A stretch of DNA of 47,504 bases, taken from assembly GCA_018333785.1 (NCBI GenBank), contig JAGXSU010000178.1, positions 1 to 47,504 of the forward strand, written 5' to 3'. Source of the stretch: Methylomicrobium sp. (GTDB lineage Bacteria; Pseudomonadota; Gammaproteobacteria; Methylococcales; Methylomonadaceae). Both the position numbers and the translations under genes were made by a program. This document shows, piece after piece, positions 2,612-40,010 of the stretch (its first letter is position 1; each line of letters opens with the position of its first letter). Below the pieces are notes generated by a model that was not told the DNA's origin, searched no databases, and saw only the letters and a program-made list of their open reading frames with translations.

Positions 2612-3862
2612 TCAGTTGGCGACGGAATGAAATAACCTCGGCCCGGCCTTCAATCTATCCAAATAATCCGCCCAGGCTTGCATCATGCGCCGGCGTTCCT
2701 CCAGATATTGAGCGCGATTGTAGGCAGCGCGTACTTGGTCCTTTGGCATGTGGCATAGTTGGCGCTCGATCGCATCAGGAGACCAGCCTTGTTCGTTGAG
2801 TAATGTCGATGCGGTGGTTCTGAAACCGTGGGCGCTCATCTCGTCGCTTGCATAGCCCAGTGTTTTTAATGCGGTGCGAATGGTGCCATCAGACATTGGC
2901 CGTTTGTCGCCTCGGCTGGATGGAAAAACGTATTGGCCGGGTCCGGTTAGCTGTTTGATGGATTCCAAAATTTCCACCGCCTGGCGTGATAGCGGGACAA
3001 CGTGTTGTGTTTCTGTTTTGGTTACAAAATAGCGCCATTCTTTCGAATCAAGGTCTATATCCTTCCATTCCATTTGGCGGATTTCTCCAGGACGTTGGAA
3101 TAAGTATGGCGACAACCTCAATGCACATTGCACAACGAAGGTGCCTTGATAGTTGGCAATGTCCCGCAACAATTGACCAACTTGCTTTGGATCAGTAATC
3201 GCTGCGTTATGCTTGACCTTTTGCGCGGGTATTTGTGCACCTACAGCTTGAGCTGGATCGTAGTCTGTAAAACCGTGGGCTATGGCGTAGGAAAAAGCGC
3301 TGCTAATGTCCGAGCGTAAACGATGGGCGGTTTCTAGTTGGTTTTTGATGATCAGTGGCCGCACGATGGTGAAAATGTCGGGTGATTTTACGTCACAAAT
3401 CGGTTTTTGGCCAATTTCCGGAAATACGTAAAGCTCGAAGCGTCGGAGTTTCTTTTGTTGAGTAATGTCGCGGACAGTGTGCGCGGAAGAAGCCAGCCAT
3501 TCTTTGGTAACGTATTCAAAACTATTAATGAGCGGCAACCCAGCATCAAGCCGTATTTGAGTATCGATAGCCTGCTGATTGTCAGCCTTTTCTTGTTTAC
3601 GAGTTGCACTGGGATCGATGCCGTTAGCAATTTGCTCGCGGGCTGCCTCGGCTTTACGTCTGGCGCTTTCCAACGATGTTTCCGGATAAGAGCCAAAGCC
3701 AAGCCTATTTTGTTTTCCACCAAACCGGTAAATAAATCGCTAAAGCTTTGATCCGTTGGTTTTGACTAGCAACGCCAAGCATTCGCCGTCATTGATAGTG
3801 TAGTCTTTGTCTTTAGGCTTTGCTGCCTTGTAGACCTTGTCTTTATTGAGATTCCTAGCCAT
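2612..3862 (-). pseudogene. P4-type tyrosine integrase with an in-frame amber codon
   Basis: From an ATG at 3862 the frame reads MARNLNKDKVYKAAKPKDKD and continues through the N-terminal DUF4102 domain. It is interrupted at codon 41 by TAG (3740-3742), in the context GSKL-stop-RFIYRFGGKQNR, where the family has SKLWRF. The rest is uninterrupted to 2612, for 416 codons in total, the usual length of P4/CP4-57 integrases. The catalytic residues are present: the Arg of PYLFQRPGEIR, the HGFRTTAST box, His in LCHMPKDQ and Tyr in RAAYNRAQY. The change is a single G-to-A (TGG to TAG). Unless an amber suppressor exists, or a shorter product initiates at the TTG at 3673, it is inactive. It lies 185 bp from tRNA-Leu, the expected attachment site. 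Confidence 0.88.
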
Positions 3863-3981
3863 TGAGTGACACCGAAAGTGATATGCAGTGATACGGTTAA
3901 GCTTAAATTTACCGCGTATAACTAACGTGTCACTGTTTCATGCGTATGTCACTGCATTTAGTTGGATTTCTTTAGACAATA

Positions 3982-4016
3982 AAAAACCCGCTAAGCCTTG
4001 CGGCTAGCGGGTTTTT
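3982..4016 (-). terminator. Rho-independent terminator after tRNA-Leu
   Basis: A near-perfect hairpin: AAAAACCCGCTA(A)GCC on one side and GGCTAGCGGGTTTTT on the other, with one bulged A and a TTGC loop. It is flanked by A/T runs on both sides, so it can act in both directions. It directly follows the 3' end of the tRNA-Leu gene. Confidence 0.85.
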
Positions 4017-4047
4017 AAATTTCTTTGGACTACCTTAAATAGGTAGG

Positions 4048-4134
4048 TGGTACCGAGGGCCGGAATCGAACCGGCACGATGTTGCCATCACCGGATTTTG
4101 AATCCGGCGCGTCTACCAGTTCCGCCACCCCGGC
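4048..4134 (-). tRNA. tRNA-Leu (anticodon CAA)
   Basis: The minus strand shows a complete class II tRNA: acceptor GCCGGGG paired with CCTCGGT, the D-loop in GGCGGAACTGGTAGACGC, an anticodon arm CCGGA-TTCAAAA-TCCGG with anticodon CAA, a long variable arm (TGATGGCAACATC), T-arm GCCGG-TTCGATT-CCGGC, discriminator A and encoded CCA at 4048-4050. The 3' side faces the integrase pseudogene, so this gene is the likely attachment site of the element to the left. The other att copy would lie outside the window. Confidence 0.95.
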
Positions 4135-16618: not shown

Positions 16619-17305
16619 TCAATGCCTAAGATTATGCATTTGTTTGAGAATCCAGGCTTGGCGTTTGATCAAATAAGGGCTGGGATTGACCGGGCTATAG
16701 CGCCTTGGATTGGGCAAAATAGCGGCAAGTAATGCTGCATGTTTCGCAGTCAGCTGATCGGCAGGCACTCCAAAATAATAACGGCTGGCTGCGCCGATGC
16801 CAAAAACATGATCACCAAATTCGGCGATATTGAGATACACCTCAAGAATGCGCTGCTTGTCCCATACAAGCTCAATCAGGGCAGTAAACCAAAACTCCAG
16901 GGCTTTCCTTCCGATATTACGAGCGGGCGTTAAAAACAGATTTTTCGCCACTTGTTGGCTGATTGTACTGGCGCCTCGGAGTTTTCCGCCTTTCTGATAG
17001 TGTGTCAGTGCTTGAGAAATCGCTTCGGTATCAAATCCACGATGCGAATAAAAGCGCTGATCTTCGGAAGCAATAACCGCTTGTCGGGCATGGTTTGAAA
17101 TAGCTGTACGGTTTATCCATTGATATTTGATAGGACGAAAGGTCTTGCCTTTTTCAAATTCTTCTAAATGACGAACGAGCATAAAGGCCGTTGTCGGTGG
17201 TGGCAAATACTTCAGTGTTCCGATTGCGGCCAATGATAAAACAAGAAATAGGAGGCTGGCAGCAATAACAAATCGCCTGATAGCTAGTAGTAGAATTTTT
17301 GACAA
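16619..17305 (-). CDS. mtgA: Monofunctional biosynthetic peptidoglycan transglycosylase
   Basis: It polymerises lipid II into glycan strands at the inner membrane. The 228-residue GT51 protein has an N-terminal membrane helix (about 9-31), the catalytic ASEDQRFYSHRGFD (catalytic Glu in SED), the GASTISQQVAKNLFL motif, a second Glu in RILEVYLNIAEFG and the AALLAAILPNPRRYSP motif. All GT51 signatures and the normal length are present. It is monofunctional: no transpeptidase domain follows. Confidence 0.96.
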   Translation of the reverse strand: MSKILLLAIRRFVIAASLLFLVLSLAAIGTLKYLPPPTTAFMLVRHLEEFEKGKTFRPIKYQWINRTAISNHARQAVIASEDQRFYSHRGFDTEAISQALTHYQKGGKLRGASTISQQVAKNLFLTPARNIGRKALEFWFTALIELVWDKQRILEVYLNIAEFGDHVFGIGAASRYYFGVPADQLTAKHAALLAAILPNPRRYSPVNPSPYLIKRQAWILKQMHNLRH

Positions 17306-17417
17306 GATTGATGACTGACCTGAAGTTGAAAAGAAGCCACCTCATATTAATGAAGCGCATGGAATTCTTAAGACAAAACAGAATAAATTCGGCTGCCGTA
17401 TGAAAAATTCAGCGAGA

Positions 17418-18290
17418 TTATCGGCTTTTGATGACACCGTGTTCATCTGAAAGAATGATTTCCACCCGGCGATTTTGTTGTTTTCCCAATTCAGTGTCGT
17501 TGGATGCGATCGGGTAGGTTTTGCCGTAACCCACTGCATTGATTCTGCTAGGGTGAATGCCTTGGTGGTTTAAAGCAACTTTAACCGCTTCGGCTCTTTT
17601 TTCCGATAAAGTCTGATTATAACTATCAGAGCCGGTACTGTCCGTGTGACCTTCAATAAGCACATTGCGTTCCGGATATTTTTCAAGAAACTCAACCAAT
17701 TTTGTCAGAATACGCAGTCCGCCCTCGTTAATGTCTGCTTTGTTGTAATCAAATAACACGTCACCCAAGGTAAGCACCATGCCTCTGTCGGTAGCTTGTG
17801 CTTGCAACTCAGTTAACTGTCTGGCCAGATCTTCGGCTTTTTGTCTGGCTTCTTCAGATTCTCTCAAGGCTTGTTCGGCTTTTTTTTGTGCTTCTTGAGC
17901 TTGCCGTGCTCTCAAATCAGCTTCCATTGTCCGCGCTTCAAGTTGAATGTTTTTTCGTTCCGCTTGAGCTTTGGTGATGATCTCTTTGGCAACCGCACTG
18001 TCGGCTTTGTATTGAGCAATTTGAGTTCTAAGCTGGGTTTTGTAAGCCATACTCTGAAGCGCAGATTCGTCGCCTCCTTCACTCTCAAGCGCTTTTAAAG
18101 CAGAGAGAGATTCCTCGGCCTCTCTTAATGCGACAGGGGCTTTTTCTGCAATGATGGGGTCGTTCTGTACGCTTCTTACCAGAATTTCTGCTTTAACGAT
18201 GTCCTGATGAGGTTGAGTGGCACAGGCAGAGAGTAAAAAAATCAAAGAACAAACAAAAGTCAGCTTCGCGGTCATCATGATCGGTTTCAT
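17418..18290 (-). CDS. OmpA-family lipoprotein with DUF4398-like N-terminal region
   Basis: The 290-residue protein has a lipoprotein signal (LLSACATQ, lipidated Cys at about 23). A DUF4398-type helical region spans about 25-110, followed by a long Glu/Lys/Ala-rich coiled coil (about 110-170). The C-terminal OmpA peptidoglycan-binding domain has LTKLVEFLEKYPERNVLIEG, HTDSTGSDSYNQTLSEKRAE and the final IASNDTELGKQQNRRVEII. It probably links the outer membrane to peptidoglycan. A second DUF4398-type lipoprotein lies 36 bp upstream on the same strand, as is common for this pair. Confidence 0.9.
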   Translation of the reverse strand: MKPIMMTAKLTFVCSLIFLLSACATQPHQDIVKAEILVRSVQNDPIIAEKAPVALREAEESLSALKALESEGGDESALQSMAYKTQLRTQIAQYKADSAVAKEIITKAQAERKNIQLEARTMEADLRARQAQEAQKKAEQALRESEEARQKAEDLARQLTELQAQATDRGMVLTLGDVLFDYNKADINEGGLRILTKLVEFLEKYPERNVLIEGHTDSTGSDSYNQTLSEKRAEAVKVALNHQGIHPSRINAVGYGKTYPIASNDTELGKQQNRRVEIILSDEHGVIKSR

Positions 18291-18326
18291 AAAACGTTAA
18301 AAAATAAAATATGTGGTTTGGGCTGA

Positions 18327-18722
18327 TTATTGTTTAACAGATTGATATCGCAGTGACTCTTGTTTCAATACCAGGATGCTCTCCTGAATATCTTCGGCCG
18401 CTTGCTTGTTTTTAATGGCCTCTGTCTTGGATTTGGCTAATTCCGCTTCAATCTCTGCGACGGAGGCTAAATTTCTGGCTTCTTCATAACGCTCATCTTT
18501 TAGTGCCTGTTGCGCTTTTTCTAGGGTTTGATGAGCCTGTCTCAACTCCAAAGGGGCATGAGTCTGTGCTCCATCTTCCTGGGCTTCTTCAATGACATAA
18601 GAACTGCGAGTAATTTCTTCGTAAGGGGGTGGTGTAGTTGTGCAAGAGACAATCAGCGAATAAAAAGGAATAAGAAAAAAGCGATTAAGTAGGGTAGGCC
18701 GAAAAATTCGACGGATGAGCAT
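18327..18722 (-). CDS. DUF4398-type small lipoprotein
   Basis: A 131-residue protein with an N-terminal signal and lipobox LIVSC-TTTPPP. It then has the DUF4398 pattern of paired helices (APLELRQAHQTLEKAQQALK, EEARNLASVAEIEAELAKSK) ending in a charged coil. The start at 18722 is chosen because GGAGGA lies 8 bases upstream; an ATG six codons earlier overlaps that site. It is the first gene of a two-gene unit with the OmpA-type lipoprotein. Its function is not established beyond the envelope location. Confidence 0.82.
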   Translation of the reverse strand: MLIRRIFRPTLLNRFFLIPFYSLIVSCTTTPPPYEEITRSSYVIEEAQEDGAQTHAPLELRQAHQTLEKAQQALKDERYEEARNLASVAEIEAELAKSKTEAIKNKQAAEDIQESILVLKQESLRYQSVKQ

Positions 18723-24994: not shown

Positions 24995-25108
24995 AACGAA
25001 AAAGCAAAGCAGACCTCCTTTGAAAGGAGGCGACCCGGCTATCTTGAAATCAATTGATTCAAGACCCATAGGCTTTCCGACCCTGTCTCGCAACAGGTGT
25101 GGCGATCT
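24995..25108 (-). promoter_or_regulatory. Probable cyclic-di-GMP-I (GEMM) riboswitch plus terminator-like hairpin
   Basis: Read on the minus strand from 25108, the leader shows CGCCACACC, a hairpin CCTGTT-GCGA-GACAGG with a GNRA tetraloop, GGGTCGGAAAGCC, TATGGGTCTTGAA, a second stem closed by TTCAAGATAGCCGGGT, then CGCC. This order and the blocks AAAGCC, GGGTC and AGCCGGGT follow the GEMM-I consensus (GGACGCAAAGCC ... GGGTC ... AGCCGGGT). Right after it comes a perfect hairpin CCTCCTTT-G-AAAGGAGG (25014-25030) followed by a T-rich run, a plausible terminator expression platform. Deviations: GTCGGAAAGCC replaces GACGCAAAGCC, and I cannot draw a convincing P1 stem. Confidence 0.66.
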
Positions 25109-25146
25109 ACTGATATCATCGAATAAGTCAGTATGACTTCCATAAA

Positions 25147-28465: not shown

Positions 28466-28683
28466 CTAAAGTGGACACCATTGTCCAGCCAGTAGTTTAA
28501 GCTATACCTTGTCGAAAATAAGAGGCAGGAAACGAGCGAAAGCAAACTGAAGATATTTACAGGTGCACAAAAAGCCAAGGCAGCCTTGGAAGCGGTCAAG
28601 TGCAAGAAGTCGATCAATGAAGTTGCCCAAGAGCATGGCGTGCATCCCACCTAAATCAGTCAATGGAAAAGGAATTGCTAGTA
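28466..28683 (+). pseudogene. IS3-family OrfA remnant
   Basis: From about 28532 the frame reads KIFTGAQKAKAALEAV, then INEVAQEHGVHPT, the helix-turn-helix protein of IS3-family elements. It is broken by TAA at 28652 and TAG at 28679, and the expected ATG start has become ACG. The sequence upstream (TGGACACCATTGTCCA near 28472) looks like the element's terminal region. No OrfB is present: the IS630 element begins within a few bases of the break. Confidence 0.75.
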
Positions 28684-28685
28684 GT

Positions 28686-29924
28686 TCGTTCCGTCAATAT
28701 ATTTACTAATTATGCAAGCTCCAAGTCGAATTTTTTCCATCGGAAAACGACCGGCGCGGCATTCATTTCAGCAACCCCCTTCAAGATGCGCGCCTTGAGT
28801 TCAGCCACCGAGGAGACGCGGATATGACGGAGGAAGGTTCGGGCCATTTTCGAGAAGACGCATTCGATCAGGTTGAGCCAGGAACCGTGTTTGGGGGTAT
28901 GAACGTACTCAAACCGCCCCGGTCGCGTGGCCAAATAGGCCATGGTCTCCTTGGAGATGTGCGACGAATGATTATCCAGAACAACGCGGATGACGGCCTC
29001 TGGCGGGTAGTAAGCGTCGATCGATTGGAGCAACGCAATGAATTCGCAGCTGCGGTGCCGGTCTTCCACTTGAGCAAACACATGGCCGGTATGCAGATCG
29101 ATACCCGCCAGAATCGAGACGGTGCCGTGGCGAACGTATTCGTAATCCCGGCTGAGCATCGGCGCCTTGCCAGGAACCGGCGGCAAATCGGGAGCCGTCA
29201 AGCCGATTGCTTGAACCCCAGGTTTCTCATCGACGCTGACCGTGTAAACCGGCTTAGCCCCTTCATTCTGAAGGGTGCCTTCGGTGCAGAGCGAAACGTC
29301 GCGATAGGCAATTAGCACCTCACGCATCTTCCGGTCGAAATCGGGGTCTCGCTTTTCCAAGTAGTAACGGATCTTGTGGGGCTTAAGTTCATTCTCGTCG
29401 AGAATCCGCCAAACCGTACTTTTGCCGGCCTTGGCAAGACGCGGAAACCCCGCCGACTCGGCGTGTTCGGACACATGGCGCGCCAATGCCGAGAGGCTCC
29501 ATAATTCCGCAGCCAGCCCCAGTTCCTTCGGCTGGATGCAAGCGATACTGATCACCCAGGCCTTAGCTTCCTCGGTGATCTCGGGCGGGCGGGGTCGATG
29601 ATAGGTATCTTTCAGCCCTGCCTGGACGCCTGCCGCCAGTGCCTTATCGATACATTTGTAAATCGTCGGCCGACTCACGCTCAATTGCCGCTGAATCTCG
29701 CTGATCGACAGGCCTTGCGCGTACTTCAGTAGAACCCCGGCCCGCTCCACTTCCCGAACCGGCGCCGTACGCGAGGCTGCCAGTTCAGACAATTTGCACC
29801 TTTGCTCGTCAGTCAATACCAGAGCCGCTCGCTCACTTCTACGTGCCATGATAACCCTCAATTTGAATAAATATGAGGATCATGACAATTCAGGGCATAT
29901 TTGTAAACTAATTAATGGGACGAT
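28686..29924 (-). mobile_element. IS630-family insertion sequence
   Basis: A single transposase gene is bounded by imperfect terminal inverted repeats of about 28 bp. The left end TCGTTCCGTCAATATATTTA compares with the right end, read inward, TCGTCCCATTAATTAGTTTA. IS630 elements target TA; TA dinucleotides lie 2-5 bases outside each end, so exact borders are uncertain by a few bases. The element abuts the IS3 remnant on one side and the histidine kinase 3' end on the other. Confidence 0.8.
28710..29849 (-). CDS. IS630-family transposase
   Basis: The 379-residue protein begins MARRSERAALVLTDEQR. The ATG at 29849 has GAGGG 6 bases upstream, so a TTG four codons earlier is not needed. It has N-terminal helix-turn-helix motifs (GLSISEIQRQLSVSRPTIYK) and a DDE catalytic domain: Asp in YTVSVDEKPGVQA, Asp in VIRVVLDNHSSH and Glu in KHGSWLNLIECVFSKMAR. 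It appears full length and uninterrupted, so it may be active. Confidence 0.93.
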   Translation of the reverse strand: MARRSERAALVLTDEQRCKLSELAASRTAPVREVERAGVLLKYAQGLSISEIQRQLSVSRPTIYKCIDKALAAGVQAGLKDTYHRPRPPEITEEAKAWVISIACIQPKELGLAAELWSLSALARHVSEHAESAGFPRLAKAGKSTVWRILDENELKPHKIRYYLEKRDPDFDRKMREVLIAYRDVSLCTEGTLQNEGAKPVYTVSVDEKPGVQAIGLTAPDLPPVPGKAPMLSRDYEYVRHGTVSILAGIDLHTGHVFAQVEDRHRSCEFIALLQSIDAYYPPEAVIRVVLDNHSSHISKETMAYLATRPGRFEYVHTPKHGSWLNLIECVFSKMARTFLRHIRVSSVAELKARILKGVAEMNAAPVVFRWKKFDLELA

Positions 29925-30042
29925 CTGGTAGAAGATTTATTAGAGTTTTCTGCGTATTCAATCTTGAAGTCTCTGGATTGGCTGACAACGGCTTTCAATT
30001 TGGCATCCTCGCCGCGCCCTAAAAAACGTTGATTCCTCGTGC

Positions 30043-32814: not shown

Positions 32815-32880
32815 GCCTAACGAAAAGTTAAGGCGCACGGGGCGCAAGGTGAAGCCCCGTGCAGGGGATTACTTTAGCAT
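32815..32880 (-). other. attC-like site 1 (half conserved), end of the lipoprotein cassette
   Basis: On the minus strand, just after the lipoprotein stop, the sequence runs through a hairpin GCACGGGGC-loop-GCCCCGTGC. It then reads GCGCCTTAACTTTTCGTTAGGC, which closely matches the L'-R' half of classical attC sites (GGCTTAACTCAAGCGTTAGGC in form), ending in the core GTTAGGC. The opposite half, next to the stop codon, is not complementary, so the site is degenerate. Confidence 0.45.
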
Positions 32881-33266
32881 TTGCCAGCAGCTCTTAGTAA
32901 AGCATTGCAGCTTGCATCGTTGGTTTTTCCTAGATCACTTGATCCCCTAGTAAAATCCGTGCACATAGCGTCTGCCCCGCTTGCCATACCCCAAGTCGCG
33001 ACCTTACCCAACCCGGACGGCTCTAAAATTTCACATTTAAAGGTGGCACCATCATTAGTTTTAACGGTGTATTGCATTCCATTATAACCAGTGGGTGCTT
33101 CTGTTACTTGTGAATGAGTGATTTTGAAGTTGCCAATTTCACGACCAATGGCCATTGAAATTTTGTTATCGACTTTGTTGTTTCCTTGAGCGGTACTATT
33201 ATTGGCTGTTGTTGCGCAGCCGGAAAGCATCAACAAGAGAGCTACCGTCAGAAGTTTTTGTGTCAT
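32874..33266 (-). CDS. Small hypothetical lipoprotein, possible integron cassette gene
   Basis: The 130-residue protein begins MTQKLLTVALLLMLSGCATT with a clear lipobox (Cys 17). The mature part is small, beta-looking, with ITHSQVTEAPTGYNGMQYTV and three further cysteines, two near the C-terminus (ASCNALLRAAGKC). No named family is recognised. The gene is bracketed by two attC-like half sites in the same orientation, giving the geometry of a gene cassette. Its base composition and orientation differ from the CTERM remnants around it. Confidence 0.6.
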   Translation of the reverse strand: MTQKLLTVALLLMLSGCATTANNSTAQGNNKVDNKISMAIGREIGNFKITHSQVTEAPTGYNGMQYTVKTNDGATFKCEILEPSGLGKVATWGMASGADAMCTDFTRGSSDLGKTNDASCNALLRAAGKC

Positions 33267-33324
33267 TTTTGATTATCCACCGCTCCAAGTAGAGAAAACG
33301 CAGGGCATAGGAGCGTGAAGATAT

Positions 33325-33387
33325 GCCTAACGCAGAGTTAACCTAATCGGTGGCACTTTAGCGCCGACCAGTGACCGAGTTTGAGCC
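33325..33387 (-). other. attC-like site 2
   Basis: On the minus strand it begins GGCTCAAAC, has an internal stem TCGG ... CCGA, and ends GGTTAACTCTGCGTTAGGC with the perfect core GTTAGGC. At 63 bp it is the size of a short attC. Complementarity of the outer arms is weak. It lies upstream of the lipoprotein gene in the same orientation as site 1. Confidence 0.42.
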
Positions 33388-35295: not shown

Positions 35296-35567
35296 ACGGC
35301 TGTGGTACCGTAACTGTGTGCACATCATTAGGCCGCTCGAAACGCCCCGATTTTAGGTATTCAGCAATCACACGCCTATCTCTACTCAAGGGCTAGTGCG
35401 TGTTAGGAATACTTAAGTGCCGGTCATTTTTCTTTGACATGACGCATGAAATTCAGAAGTCTTTAGTCAGAATTAACGAGGTCTGTTCAGTGGCTTTCTA
35501 TCGCTGATTCATCATTAGGCCTCCAGCAGGGTGAGGACTTGTGAGTACAAAGCCCATTAAGCGACCA

Positions 35568-35960
35568 TTATAAATTTTTAATTGGATTGGCATTTCCTTT
35601 ATGGAAGTAATGTGCAATTGATTCTCCAATATATTTATTGCGAATTGTATCCGGTGCGACTTTACCGATAAATTCCCATCTACCTTTCCATTTGTACTTC
35701 TCATTGTCCTTTGGATTTGCATCCTGCATTGCACGGGTCTCATATAATGTTATTCCTGCTGGTTGCCATTTTTGGATAGAAAAAATTTCTTGAACTACTC
35801 CGTTTGCAATACAAAAGGCATAATTTGCATTTTCTCGCCTTAAGCCAATCTTCCAAACCCCTCTTGTTATTTCGTAGAGTTCATTATCGGACATTCCTGG
35901 TCTGAATAATCTTGATGCACGGATAAGAAGGGCTGGTTCAGTGATATTAATTTTTGTCAT
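35568..35960 (-). CDS. Hypothetical protein, 130 aa, island gene
   Basis: I have no name for it. It shows a compact conserved-looking pattern: RPGMSDNELYEITRGVWKIG, RRENANYAFCIANGVVQEIF, SIQKWQPAG, then WEFIGKVAPDTIRNKYIGES and a final HYFHKGNANPIKNL. Patterns of this kind occur as stand-alone small proteins near restriction or nuclease genes. The next gene upstream on the same strand is nuclease-like, 72 bp away. AT-rich DNA compared with the core genome suggests acquisition. Confidence 0.6.
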   Translation of the reverse strand: MTKINITEPALLIRASRLFRPGMSDNELYEITRGVWKIGLRRENANYAFCIANGVVQEIFSIQKWQPAGITLYETRAMQDANPKDNEKYKWKGRWEFIGKVAPDTIRNKYIGESIAHYFHKGNANPIKNL

Positions 35961-36032
35961 AAAAAATTTTGGTAACTAAGTGAGTCGAGATCACAGGGAC
36001 GAGCCAAGGGTAACGTAAATTTTAATGATTGC

Positions 36033-36518
36033 TTAGGATTTCAATTTTGCTTCGATTAAATCCCATCTTTCACGATATATACTGATGTCCCAGCCACTAA
36101 ATGATTTATAAGGAGGTATATGTACTGTTCTAATGTTGGTTTGATTATGATCTTGCCCGTTCCTACCTGGCGTCTTGAGCCAGAGTTCATGAGCTTCTTT
36201 GACGTTGCTAGCCATTACATTCGACGGAATAATAAAGTACTCAAAATCTAGCTTGCTTTGAGGTTGTGGTATGCCGCCAAGTACCCAAAAAAAATTTTCA
36301 CCGAAGTCTTTTTCCGATTTGAGACCTACACTGCAGGTCGAATTGCCTGGTACATAGGTTTTTACCTGAATATGGACAAATCTTGTTCCTTCAATGTTGC
36401 TACAAAGAATGTCGGTATTAGGAGTATTACCGAGTGTAACTACGGCCGAATATCCCCTTCGGCATAGCTCACCCGCTACAAAAAATTGACTCGCATTCCC
36501 TCTCGTACTTTTTTCCAT
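36033..36518 (-). CDS. PD-(D/E)XK-like putative nuclease, 161 aa
   Basis: It begins MEKSTRGNASQFFVAGELCR, a helix typical of the start of the restriction-endonuclease fold (EL...G). GNTPNTDILCSN supplies the acidic residue, and FVHIQVKTYVPG the (Q/E)xK pair. That is the fold's D...QxK motif set. The C-terminal part (FEYFIIPSNVMASNV) continues in the same fold. Substrate and partner are unknown. It shares direction with the 35568 gene and may form a two-gene accessory unit. Confidence 0.6.
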   Translation of the reverse strand: MEKSTRGNASQFFVAGELCRRGYSAVVTLGNTPNTDILCSNIEGTRFVHIQVKTYVPGNSTCSVGLKSEKDFGENFFWVLGGIPQPQSKLDFEYFIIPSNVMASNVKEAHELWLKTPGRNGQDHNQTNIRTVHIPPYKSFSGWDISIYRERWDLIEAKLKS

Positions 36519-36539
36519 GGCTTTAGTTTTTAAAGGTTA

Positions 36540-37207
36540 ATATGGAATTAGGAAGTCAACTTTATATCACCAGGAAGATACTTTGCACGTTTTATCGATA
36601 AGCATACAATTGTTTAATTGCTGAAAAAGCTGATGACCGGTAATGATGGGTTATACGCCATTGAATCAGATTAAGCGAAAGACGGTAAAGGGTCGTAAGG
36701 CGTCGATTAGACAATAAAAAATAACCTATTCCGAGTGGCCGCTTTCATTATAAGAGACATTCGACTTATCGCGAATTTTAAATGGCTACTTTAGCTGATT
36801 ATACTCATTAATGGGCATTGTTCTCACAACGCCTCATTTTTATGCACTGGATAAAATCATATAAAGTGAGAAATCCTAATCGATAAAAATACTTGTTGTA
36901 ATAAAAACTGAACTCATAAAGTCAATTAATCTGAGATGAAAAAGCCGAATAAATGCAAGAAAAACCGATTATGAAGTCATGAAGCTAAAAATACCCATCA
37001 AATTAAAGTCATACGGCTAAAATTGAGCCTGGAACCATGACAGGGAAACCAGGATTTTAAAGGGGCTTAAACGCCCCTTTTTTTATGACTTCAATTTGAT
37101 AAGCCCTTATCGGTAATATGCAATAATTTGTAAACAACACCAAACCAAAGTCCATGCCGGTCTGTATATCTTACTATTCATGAATTCTGGATAGTTGGCA
37201 CGAAATC
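36540..37207. other. Long AT-rich gap in the island
   Basis: No coding sequence is supportable over 660 bp. The only structured part is the candidate small RNA with terminator at 36975-37087. The remainder is AT-rich with no repeats noticed. Confidence 0.5.
36975..37087 (+). ncRNA. Candidate small RNA ending in a strong terminator
   Basis: A terminator AAAGGGGC-TTAAAC-GCCCCTTTTTTT lies at 37058-37084 with no gene before it on this strand. Just upstream, AAAATTGAG-CCTGG ... CCAGGATTTT forms a second stem. Before that, two imperfect direct repeats, AAGTCATGAAGCTAAAAAT (36977) and AAGTCATACGGCTAAAATT (37008), are 31 bases apart. A terminator and paired repeats without an ORF suggest an independent non-coding transcript; its promoter is not clear. 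Confidence 0.4.
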
Positions 37208-37990: not shown

Positions 37991-38129
37991 CGACTCAAGC
38001 GGGGGGCCTTTATTAAAACAAACGCGCGTGTGCGATTTACGGAGAGACACGCCATGACCAAACCCTTAAACCGTAAAATCGACCGATGACATTTTTTTGT
38101 AAAAGGCATAGACCACAGCGTAGCACCGG

Positions 38130-38215
38130 AAAAAAGGCTCTGGCAAACCTCCTAAGGCTTGAATTTTATTTGCTTTAAAGATGAGACTCGAACCCGCGAC
38201 CGGCTAATTACAAAA
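38130..38215 (-). pseudogene. Degenerate second copy of tRNA-Thr 3' half plus its terminator
   Basis: ATGAGACTCGAACCCGCGAC and onward to ATTACAAA (38181-38214) matches the true tRNA-Thr at 39361-39394 with 2 differences in 34 bases. The flank AAAAAAGGCTCTGG ... CCTAAGGCTTG ... TTTTATT matches the terminator region of the true gene. The copy breaks in the anticodon stem and the acceptor half is changed. Both copies are in the same orientation, 1,180 bp apart. Confidence 0.8.
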
Positions 38216-38232
38216 TTTATAGGATAGAAAAA

Positions 38233-38297
38233 ATACACAACGAATAAAGTTAGATTTGGTTGGCTTTGCTCATAAAATCTAAGCTTATTCGTTAGGC
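38233..38297. other. attC-like site 3 (near-perfect palindromic form)
   Basis: CACAACGAATAAAGTTAGATTT pairs almost completely with AAATCTAAGCTTATTCGTTAGG across a 17-nt loop (the two arms are within 38236-38297). The cores are GTTAGGC on the plus strand and ACACAAC at the other end. On the minus strand this reads GCCTAAC ... GTTGTGT, with the TAA stop of the 38292 gene inside GCCTAAC, as in many integron cassettes. Size (about 65 bp), imperfect symmetry and both cores fit attC. Confidence 0.62.
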
Positions 38298-38795
38298 CAA
38301 TTGTTCATCAACGAACACCTCAAATTCCGTCTTTTCTTCGGAGCACCTCAGCACCCGTTTGAATGCTTTAAGTGGAATGGGCCCCATACTTGCCGCTTCG
38401 ATCTTCGGCATAATCGTGTGGCGATATGTCTTTTTATTTTTCCATTGCTCAAGGAGCACAGAACCCGAGACGAAGTCATCAGCAAGAATGCTGGTGTCTA
38501 TTTCTATCCATACTGACACCCCCCAATCTTTCCGAAAAGGAACAAATGTATACCAGCTCGAAAATGGATACTTCTCGCAATATGCTTGAGCATCAAATTC
38601 CCTGAAGTCGAAGAGACTTATACCCCCAAGTGTCCTGACGTACGGGTAAAACTCCATGCCTCTCCCGCTCTTCCATCTTTCAGAATCGGGGATTGCTGGT
38701 TCAGAAAGTATGTAGCCAACTTTCATAATTCCCCGATACCTTTCTATGCTGGTCGTGTGCCAAACGGACCCCAGAAGTTCAGATTGAAAGCTCAT
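38292..38795 (-). CDS. Hypothetical protein, 167 aa, probable cassette gene
   Basis: The start MSFQSELLGSVWHTTSIERY followed by RGIMKVGYI recalls the HxT...I...G motif at the entry of ADP-ribosyltransferase-fold proteins (DarT/Tpt1-like). Later features are YPYVRTLGGISLFDFREF and WIEIDTSILADDF, and a conserved-looking HTIMPKIEAASMGPIPLKAF. ART membership is a guess; no full catalytic triad can be assigned. The stop codon lies in the core of attC-like site 3. Confidence 0.6.
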   Translation of the reverse strand: MSFQSELLGSVWHTTSIERYRGIMKVGYILSEPAIPDSERWKSGRGMEFYPYVRTLGGISLFDFREFDAQAYCEKYPFSSWYTFVPFRKDWGVSVWIEIDTSILADDFVSGSVLLEQWKNKKTYRHTIMPKIEAASMGPIPLKAFKRVLRCSEEKTEFEVFVDEQLA

Positions 38796-38798
38796 GCG

Positions 38799-39203
38799 TC
38801 ACTCCTGCCCCTTGTTGAGCATGGATTTAGTATTGTCTCGAACAATTAATGGCTTTAACCTGCCTGTCAATACCCAACAAAGTGAATAAAAGAGTATTAA
38901 TGCTATAGCTGGAACTAAGTAAACAAGAAGAGCAAATAAATCAGCCTTTTCTCGTTCTTTATCCCTGCCACCAACTGCTCTGTCAAACGATTCCTTCCAT
39001 ATGCCGGTGAATTCACATGATGTTGAATCTCTATTTTTCTTACAGTCGGCCTGAGACTGTCTCATGCTCTTGGAGCTGGAGAACACCAAAGACTGCCAGT
39101 CGCTGACTTGTTTTTCCGAATACGCCCAATCACCCCCGAACCATAGTAAAGAGCCAATTACGACGAGAACCATCAATCGAAAGCATACAAGCTCAATATT
39201 CAT
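38799..39203 (-). CDS. Hypothetical protein with two membrane helices, 134 aa
   Basis: It starts MNIELVCFRLMVLVVIGSLL with a first helix (about 9-25), then a polar middle with two cysteines (DCKKNRDSTSCEF) and a second helix (about 95-115, LFALLVYLVPAIALILFYSL). A TTG ten codons earlier is possible but has no better ribosome site. The stop is 3 bp before the 38292 start, so the two genes are co-expressed and lie between the tRNA-Thr repeats. Confidence 0.55.
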   Translation of the reverse strand: MNIELVCFRLMVLVVIGSLLWFGGDWAYSEKQVSDWQSLVFSSSKSMRQSQADCKKNRDSTSCEFTGIWKESFDRAVGGRDKEREKADLFALLVYLVPAIALILFYSLCWVLTGRLKPLIVRDNTKSMLNKGQE

Positions 39204-39307
39204 TGGTATTAACCTTTGACTTGGGACACCCAACTAAAAAAAGTAACGCAGGAAGGAAAAGAAGAGAAGAAAATTTGAGGTTTATAATTTACAACGTAAC
39301 CCCGAAA

Positions 39308-39345
39308 ATAAAAAAGGCCTTGGTAAAAAACCTAAGGCCTTGATT
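39308..39345 (-). terminator. Terminator after tRNA-Thr
   Basis: AAGGCCTT-GG ... CC-TAAGGCCTT forms a stem around an A-rich loop, flanked by an A-run on the downstream side (T-run in the transcript). It follows the tRNA-Thr 3' end by a few bases. Confidence 0.7.
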
Positions 39346-39349
39346 TTAT

Positions 39350-39425
39350 TGGAGCTGGTGATGGGACTCGAACCCGCGACCGGCTGATTACAAATCAGCT
39401 GCTCTACCAACTGAGCTACACCAGC
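39350..39425 (-). tRNA. tRNA-Thr (anticodon TGT)
   Basis: The minus strand reads acceptor GCTGGTG with CACCAGC, D-arm AGCTCAGTTGGTAGAGC, anticodon arm CTGAT-TTGTAA-TCAG with anticodon TGT, T-arm CGGG-TTCGAGT-CCCA, discriminator T and encoded CCA at 39350-39352. It has standard class I proportions. It forms the right border of the accessory region. Confidence 0.95.
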
Positions 39426-39477
39426 GAAGAAGCCGCATTATACAGAACTTTTTTATCAGTGCAAACCCTTTTTTGGG

Positions 39478-40010
39478 TTAACTTTTGATGCATGTTTTCG
39501 GGACCAATACCCTTGATTTTCCTGAAAAATAATACCCGGCAAGGCCAAGCCATTCTCTTGTGCAGTAAACAAATTGCTTAAAGTGCTCTGCAAAACCAAA
39601 GTGGTTTTTACCTGTTGAGGTGGCGTTGTCCAATGATCTACCGGAAGCCGTTTCAGACCAATCAACTGGGCAAAATACTTCAACTACTCATGGCATATGA
39701 GAAGTACTCGTGATCAATAACCAGAATTCGCCATCTATCGGCTTTACCAATCTCTTTGTTAATAGTGCGTTTTCGTAGGTATTTCTTGAATTGCTTTCAA
39801 ATTGGATACTGGAAACATCCAAACCCTGTTATTGAAAAAGTTGCGCCGCGACATTCGCTTCTGATTTTTTTAGCGTTTTCAGTCCGCCAGACCCTCCGGC
39901 AAATACCTGTTTTGCCTAGGTATATTGCCTGGCTAAATGCATAAACGCCAAAGCAGGTCCCGTGTAAGCCCTTGGGCTTAAATTGTTGTCATTTGATACT
40001 GGTTTGGATC
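39478..40010 (-). pseudogene. DUF218 (YdcF/ElyC-like) protein, nonsense-riddled
   Basis: One continuous frame on the minus strand gives LSPRAYTGPALAFMHLARQY, AKQVFAGGSGGLKTLKKSEA, SIQFESNSRNTYENALLTKR, WLLITSTSHMP, VFCPVDWSETASG and REWLGLAGYYFSGKSRVLVP, the ordered signature of DUF218 proteins (GG, SEA, E-xx-SxNTYENA, TSxxHM, PVDW, REWLGL). It is stopped at TAG (39916-39918), TAA (39829-39831) and TGA (39688-39690). Each is one C-to-T change from Gln, Gln and Arg. No frameshift is needed. The N-terminus is lost. Confidence 0.82.

Follow-up and report, generated by a model that had tools for sequence, protein, structure and literature searches.

A stretch of 47,504 nucleotides from Methylomicrobium sp. 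(contig JAGXSU010000178.1), referred to below as the window, contains the 3' half of a tRNA-Thr gene and its terminator a second time, a short distance from the intact gene. The question raised by this locus is whether the repetition is the footprint of site-specific integration, as an earlier note on this DNA had held, and what the enclosed segment represents. We consider it probable that the locus is a tRNA-Thr island remnant, nearly emptied, which holds a lone integron cassette outside any array. Every part of such a structure is of a known kind and the combination alone is unusual; in the literature that was searched we recognised no description of an integron cassette in a tRNA island or its remnant, which is weak evidence of absence.

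The repeat at the tRNA-Thr gene

The two blocks, 38130-38214 and 39310-39394, lie in direct orientation with their starts 1180 bp apart, and align without gaps over 85 nt at 79% identity (Table 1). Each spans tRNA positions 32-76 (the 3' end) plus the terminator, which confirms the initial observation of a tRNA-Thr 3' half and terminator recurring 1,180 bp away in the same orientation, including its core of 32 identical bases in 34. Only 2 of the 18 differences between the copies fall in these 34 nt, which are the ones nearest the anticodon loop; given an even spread, the probability of so few differences there is 0.004. The displaced copy is decayed in its acceptor-stem part, and its predicted terminator hairpin is the weaker one (-9.8 versus -17.3 kcal/mol, for 48-nt stretches). 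The sole intact tRNA called in the repeat region by ARAGORN and Rfam is tRNA-Thr(TGT), and neither called a tRNA at 38130-38214. The local alignment score to the displaced copy was 49, as against a best score of 15 on both strands of the rest of the window (leaving out 38001-39600), and no further displaced tRNA-Thr copy was found within the window. As in a tRNA-gene island, one end of the locus is an intact tRNA gene and the opposite end a displaced 3' fragment in direct orientation.

Table 1. Features of the tRNA-Thr locus in window coordinates
Feature	Coordinates	Strand	Basis
Far attachment block: displaced, partly decayed copy of tRNA 3' part and terminator	38130..38214	-	repeat D1, 79%
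26 bp from displaced copy to cassette	38215..38240	.	sequence
attC site; R'' box contains the ORF1 stop codon; 3' crossover G at 38241	38235..38297	-	covariance model; folding
Putative integron cassette, ~993 bp	38241..39233	-	GTTRRRY boxes at 39234 and 38878; attC at 3' end
ORF1, 167 aa, no known family	38292..38795	-	relatives on seven plasmid records
ORF2, 134 aa from ATG (144 aa from TTG at 39233), no known family	38799..39203	-	ORF list, searches
76 bp from terminator to cassette; element end or old chromosomal flank	39234..39309	.	sequence and alignment
Near attachment block: tRNA 3' part from position 32 and terminator	39310..39394	-	repeat D1; block and boundaries same in G001, G002
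tRNA-Thr(TGT), intact; putative regenerated target gene	39350..39425	-	ARAGORN; Rfam tRNA, 68.1 bits

Displaced tRNA-Thr copies and integrases in other genomes

The tRNA-Thr stretch was searched in 41 genomes (its own and 40 relatives, the latter designated by G numbers), and besides whole tRNA genes the search returned matches covering the terminator and the 3' half only. Among the matches listed, 11 displaced copies were compared: those of the window, G001, G002, G011 (of the CGT-anticodon type), G019, G050 (located through its integrase) and G031, and four from G028. All 11 end within about 10 bases of one point in the anticodon loop, with the breakpoint of G031 lying slightly before it and that of G002 ten bases after it, and ARAGORN called no tRNA at any of them.

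A tyrosine integrase lies just beyond the displaced copy in five of the ten copies fetched outside the window. Those of G001 and G002 were identified by Pfam, and those of G011, G019 and G050 by tblastn with the G001 and G002 integrases. An HMM built from these five copy-linked integrases and the one beside tRNA-Leu in the window recovered its own six members, as it must by construction, and matches the window only at 2615-3739. Neither tblastn nor this HMM found an integrase in the fetched stretches around the four G028 copies, one of which sits 24 bp from a contig end, or around the G031 copy. Integrase-less displaced copies are thus common (5/10), and the origin of such copies is not always proven.

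Two relatives preserve both ends. The G001 copies are separated by 87 kb, and the displaced one matches the tRNA block of the window without a difference over 90 bp; in G019 the displaced copy, integrase and tRNA share one contig, with the integrase between copies 7.8 kb apart. The earlier note had reasoned that relatives carrying both copies with no variation in between would point to an ancient tandem duplication, and these unequal distances do not fit that pattern. By eye, arm-like direct repeats are present at both ends in G001 and in G019; the G001 repeat is placed 132-150 bp out from the displaced copy (likewise by eye), and such repeats precede the integrase in G001, G050 and G019.

When named genomes were scanned with the G001 integrase as query, seven loci emerged, and five of them have a 3' half resembling that of tRNA-Thr upstream of the integrase. 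These are in two Methylococcaceae MAGs, a Halopseudomonas MAG, a Pseudomonas chromosome and a Rhodospirillaceae MAG, the last three having a different 3' half that was judged tRNA-Thr-like by similarity only. One of the other two loci starts at the integrase, and the second, a weak relative, shows no 3' half. The search for integrases using this tRNA, which had been proposed at the outset, found integrase-bearing elements at the site elsewhere, beside 5/10 copies and at 5/7 named loci. Site-specific integration at tRNA-Thr is supported, because the breakpoint is common to the displaced copies and integrases lie beside half of those fetched from other genomes; this bears out the original reading of the repeated tRNA 3' end as an integration footprint.

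An empty tRNA-Thr site, the other comparison suggested, was sought in relatives with a negative outcome: G001, G002 and G011 showed neither such a site nor any match to the left flank (38000-38130). In G001 the equivalents of window positions 28466 and 40016 are 617 bp apart and the tRNA-Thr gene is about 128 kb from them. A DUF218 gene that stands upstream of tRNA-Thr in G001 is here in two pieces, the 3' part in the window up to 40009 and the 5' end on contig C87. These distances and the split gene show that the lineage has undergone a relocation or rearrangement of the tRNA-Thr region; the reading of the repeat is unaltered by this, but flank comparison is limited.

Several further observations concern tRNA genes and mobile DNA. 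1) The four displaced tRNA-Thr 3' halves of G028 are at loci L115, L116, L117 and L119, and three have arm-like repeats in their outer flanks, a pattern that tandem accretion would be expected to leave. 2) On contig C105 (L034:15327-15521), the downstream flank of a tRNA-Thr(CGT) gene is 93% like the tRNA-Thr(TGT) flank in G001 and G002 and carries the same arm-like repeat; we take it for the end of an element at another tRNA-Thr gene. 3) At 2612-4134 of the window, tRNA-Leu(CAA) (4048-4134, minus strand) adjoins a tyrosine integrase ORF (2612-3673, minus strand), probably as another tRNA-gene element. 4) At 35532-36836, 29-nt inverted repeats (86%) surround two minus-strand ORFs, and the one at 35568-35960 is a match to the PADLOC defence model PD-T4-3 over the C-terminal half of that model (E 4.3e-16); the unit could be a small mobile defence module. 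5) An IS-like segment at 28679-29927 is repeated at two contig ends, as a 98% copy on C133 and as 196 bp at 100% on C31. 6) A c-di-GMP-I riboswitch (43 bits) occupies 25026-25113 on the minus strand.

The probable cassette between the repeats

No integrase gene lies between the copies, which enclose only ORF1 and ORF2, both lacking a family match, and an attC site at 38235-38297. This site was scored with a covariance model built from ten sites, nine from relatives and one from contig C61, with the window site left out; the row L035:18495, shorter and misaligned, was excluded from the model alignment. Its score is 47.2 bits (E 2.3e-9) in the minus orientation, which the genes require, and thus 13 bits above the 34.2 bits of the plus orientation. 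As DNA it folds better than shuffled sequences (z -4.6 on the plus strand, -3.8 on the minus strand). The R'' box fits RYYYAAC, and the R' box has G|TT, with its last bases deviating from GTTRRRY. A rule-based scan that demanded a 3' GTTRRRY had returned the plus orientation only; this was rejected, as the covariance model prefers minus. The model matches one place in the window and, in 241,150 bases of this genome, two places on C61 (one being a row of the model) as well as one on C39; its two matches in 271,460 bases of sequence from relatives both had E values of at least 1.8.

The attC, with its R'' and R' boxes and hairpin, stands directly after a gene in the correct orientation, as in an integron cassette. 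The 5' boundary has two candidate GTTRRRY boxes on the minus strand: the one at 39234 gives a cassette holding both ORFs, and that at 38878 a shorter cassette starting at 38877, inside ORF2. We prefer the former, the latter being possible. The ORF2 stop and the ORF1 start are 3 bp apart, and both ORFs would belong to the cassette. With the 39234 boundary the cassette fills 993 of the 1180 bp; the remainder is just the 85-nt block and two stretches of 26 and 76 bp. The initial description of the segment as two small genes and an attC-like site (its site 3) with no recombinase stands in its inventory, but the genes and the site are most likely one integron cassette and not separate contents. The 76-bp flank may be chromosomal and not element DNA, because by eye it resembles the outer flank of the G019 displaced copy over about 20 bp. 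The window has one attC, with neither an intI beside an array nor at least two attC sites, as a complete integron or a CALIN would have. Elsewhere in the window, at 32815-33341, two attC-like half palindromes (32815 and 33325), 510 bp apart, surround a small lipoprotein-like ORF (32874-33266, minus strand); they were rejected as attC sites, the left arm being absent by eye and the covariance model not matching them, and the pair resembles cassette borders without full attC sites.

The two ORFs each occupy a single place in their own genome. Neither matched Pfam, NCBIfam or PADLOC; PHROGs gave one match to ORF2, at E 0.03, and by eye ORF2 has hydrophobic stretches near both ends. Relatives of ORF1 occur on seven plasmid records, at 53% in Tritonibacter, 40% in Sulfitobacter and 34% in five from Providencia. 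None were found in 60 other genomes, and no close relatives in the genome_contigs and viral_contigs collections; ORF2 had no relatives in the 60 genomes or on plasmids. A profile of ORF1 and three plasmid relatives, compared with solved structures, gave nothing below E 0.19, and a structure prediction from the single ORF1 sequence was discarded (mean pLDDT 35.4).

As to the source of the cassette, DNA searches found attC relatives in 16 of 61 genomes, the own genome included, and in G003 one lies 374 bp from an integron integrase without stops. The own genome has two integron integrase matches over the cut-off, on contigs C61 and C23, both with an internal stop and missing the N-terminal part of the model, the second with a further piece adjoining in another frame; both resident integrases look broken. 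At the C61 locus (L035:13248-18553) an attC adjoins the N-terminal end of the stop-containing integrase, and a few kb away, at about 17240-18553, stands another lone cassette-like unit (boundaries by eye, attC by model). The cassette of the window would have entered through a non-attC site, since it is isolated and has G|TT at its 3' end; insertion of cassettes at attG sites is described in the available text of PMC12444791 and PMC12901181, and the attG paper cited there is also in the reference list of PMC11023631.

Origin and significance of the locus

In the explanation that we favour, an element with a tRNA-Thr-specific tyrosine integrase would have integrated in the anticodon-loop region of the tRNA-Thr gene. 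The tRNA 3' half and terminator that it carried would have restored the gene, leaving the displaced 3' half at the far end, 38130-38214. The integrase and cargo would subsequently have been lost, and an integron integrase would have inserted the cassette, comprising the two ORFs and the attC, between both ends at a non-attC site, so that it is now nearly all that remains between them. The lost integrase, the order of its loss and of the cassette insertion, and the mechanism of that insertion are what we infer from the observed repeat and its boundaries, the integrases beside equivalent copies elsewhere, and the attC with its orientation. Weighing against this history are the missing empty site and left-flank match, the lack of an integrase beside half of the other copies, the possibly chromosomal 76-bp flank, the second candidate for the 5' boundary of the cassette and the rearranged tRNA region.

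Other histories were weighed against this one. An ancient tandem duplication of tRNA-Thr, in which the second copy lost its 5' half and decayed and a cassette landed between the two, is quite unlikely. At just 79% likeness the copies would be old, and tandem genes do occur, G013 having two tRNA-Thr-like matches 186 bp apart; but the break falls at the anticodon loop, as in the integrase-linked copies of other genomes, and the 34 nt beside it are better kept than the remainder.

The earlier note had left the choice between a remnant and a minimal satellite-like insert. In the latter, a 1.18-kb unit of one att and the cassette would transfer, excised and integrated in trans by the integrases of other tRNA-Thr elements. 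Better preservation of the 34-nt core would suit such a unit, and integrases for the site exist in the genus. However, in the own genome nothing related to the G001 integrase was found at E <= 1e-40, a five-member profile detected just four tyrosine recombinases, all distant, at E <= 1e-15, and both cassette ORFs are missing from the 60 other genomes searched. Moreover, only 26 bp are left on the side where G001, G050 and G019 carry arm-like repeats before the integrase, which speaks against recombining ends. The remnant is favoured, and the satellite very improbable, because there is no integrase and only 26 bp where the G001 repeat lies farther out. A minimal two-recombinase transfer unit, in which an integron integrase would capture the cassette within the tRNA-Thr att pair and helper tyrosine integrases would move it, likewise deserves little credence; if it were true, single cassettes could travel between tRNA-Thr genes and settle without an integron.

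There is also scant likelihood that the displaced copy and the 76-bp flank are the ends of two successive elements, the segment never having been one element. Arm-like direct repeats, seen by eye on the outer flanks in G001, G019, G050 and three of the four G028 copies, would be expected of tandem elements, but the window is without a further displaced copy. Finally, an assembly artefact that put a tRNA fragment near the tRNA gene is next to negligible: the contig is rearranged relative to G001 nearby, at 40009/40016, but a likeness of 79% is a poor cause of misjoin, and the cassette ORFs occur at a single place in the genome.

The probable tRNA-Thr island remnant can be placed among known systems, as far as the available text of the cited sources goes. 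With the tyrosine-integrase tRNA islands of the Islander type (PMC4383910) it shares a regenerated tRNA gene and a displaced 3' fragment at its ends, and it differs in having no integrase and almost no island DNA left; we file it as a remnant, and not an island, because the integrase is missing from its interior. It is like a cis-mobilizable element, or CIME (PMC5704250, PMC3146451), in that att-like ends are present and the integration and transfer genes are gone, and unlike it in that its ends are only putative as recombining sites, with no more than 26 bp left on one side. Lone cassettes or single attC sites outside integrons (PMC9024848, PMC12444791, PMC12901181) similarly combine one attC with genes, have no adjoining attI or intI, and show G|TT at the crossover; the present one differs in lying between tRNA-island-remnant ends, and its insertion would be a deduced event.

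These results document that integration at tRNA-Thr recurs in this bacterial family, copies linked to an integrase being present in several genera. They also record an integron cassette standing alone inside what is probably an emptied island. Should cassettes prove to land frequently in the ends of islands, integrons and tRNA hot spots would each supply the other, and such events could be counted across genomes.
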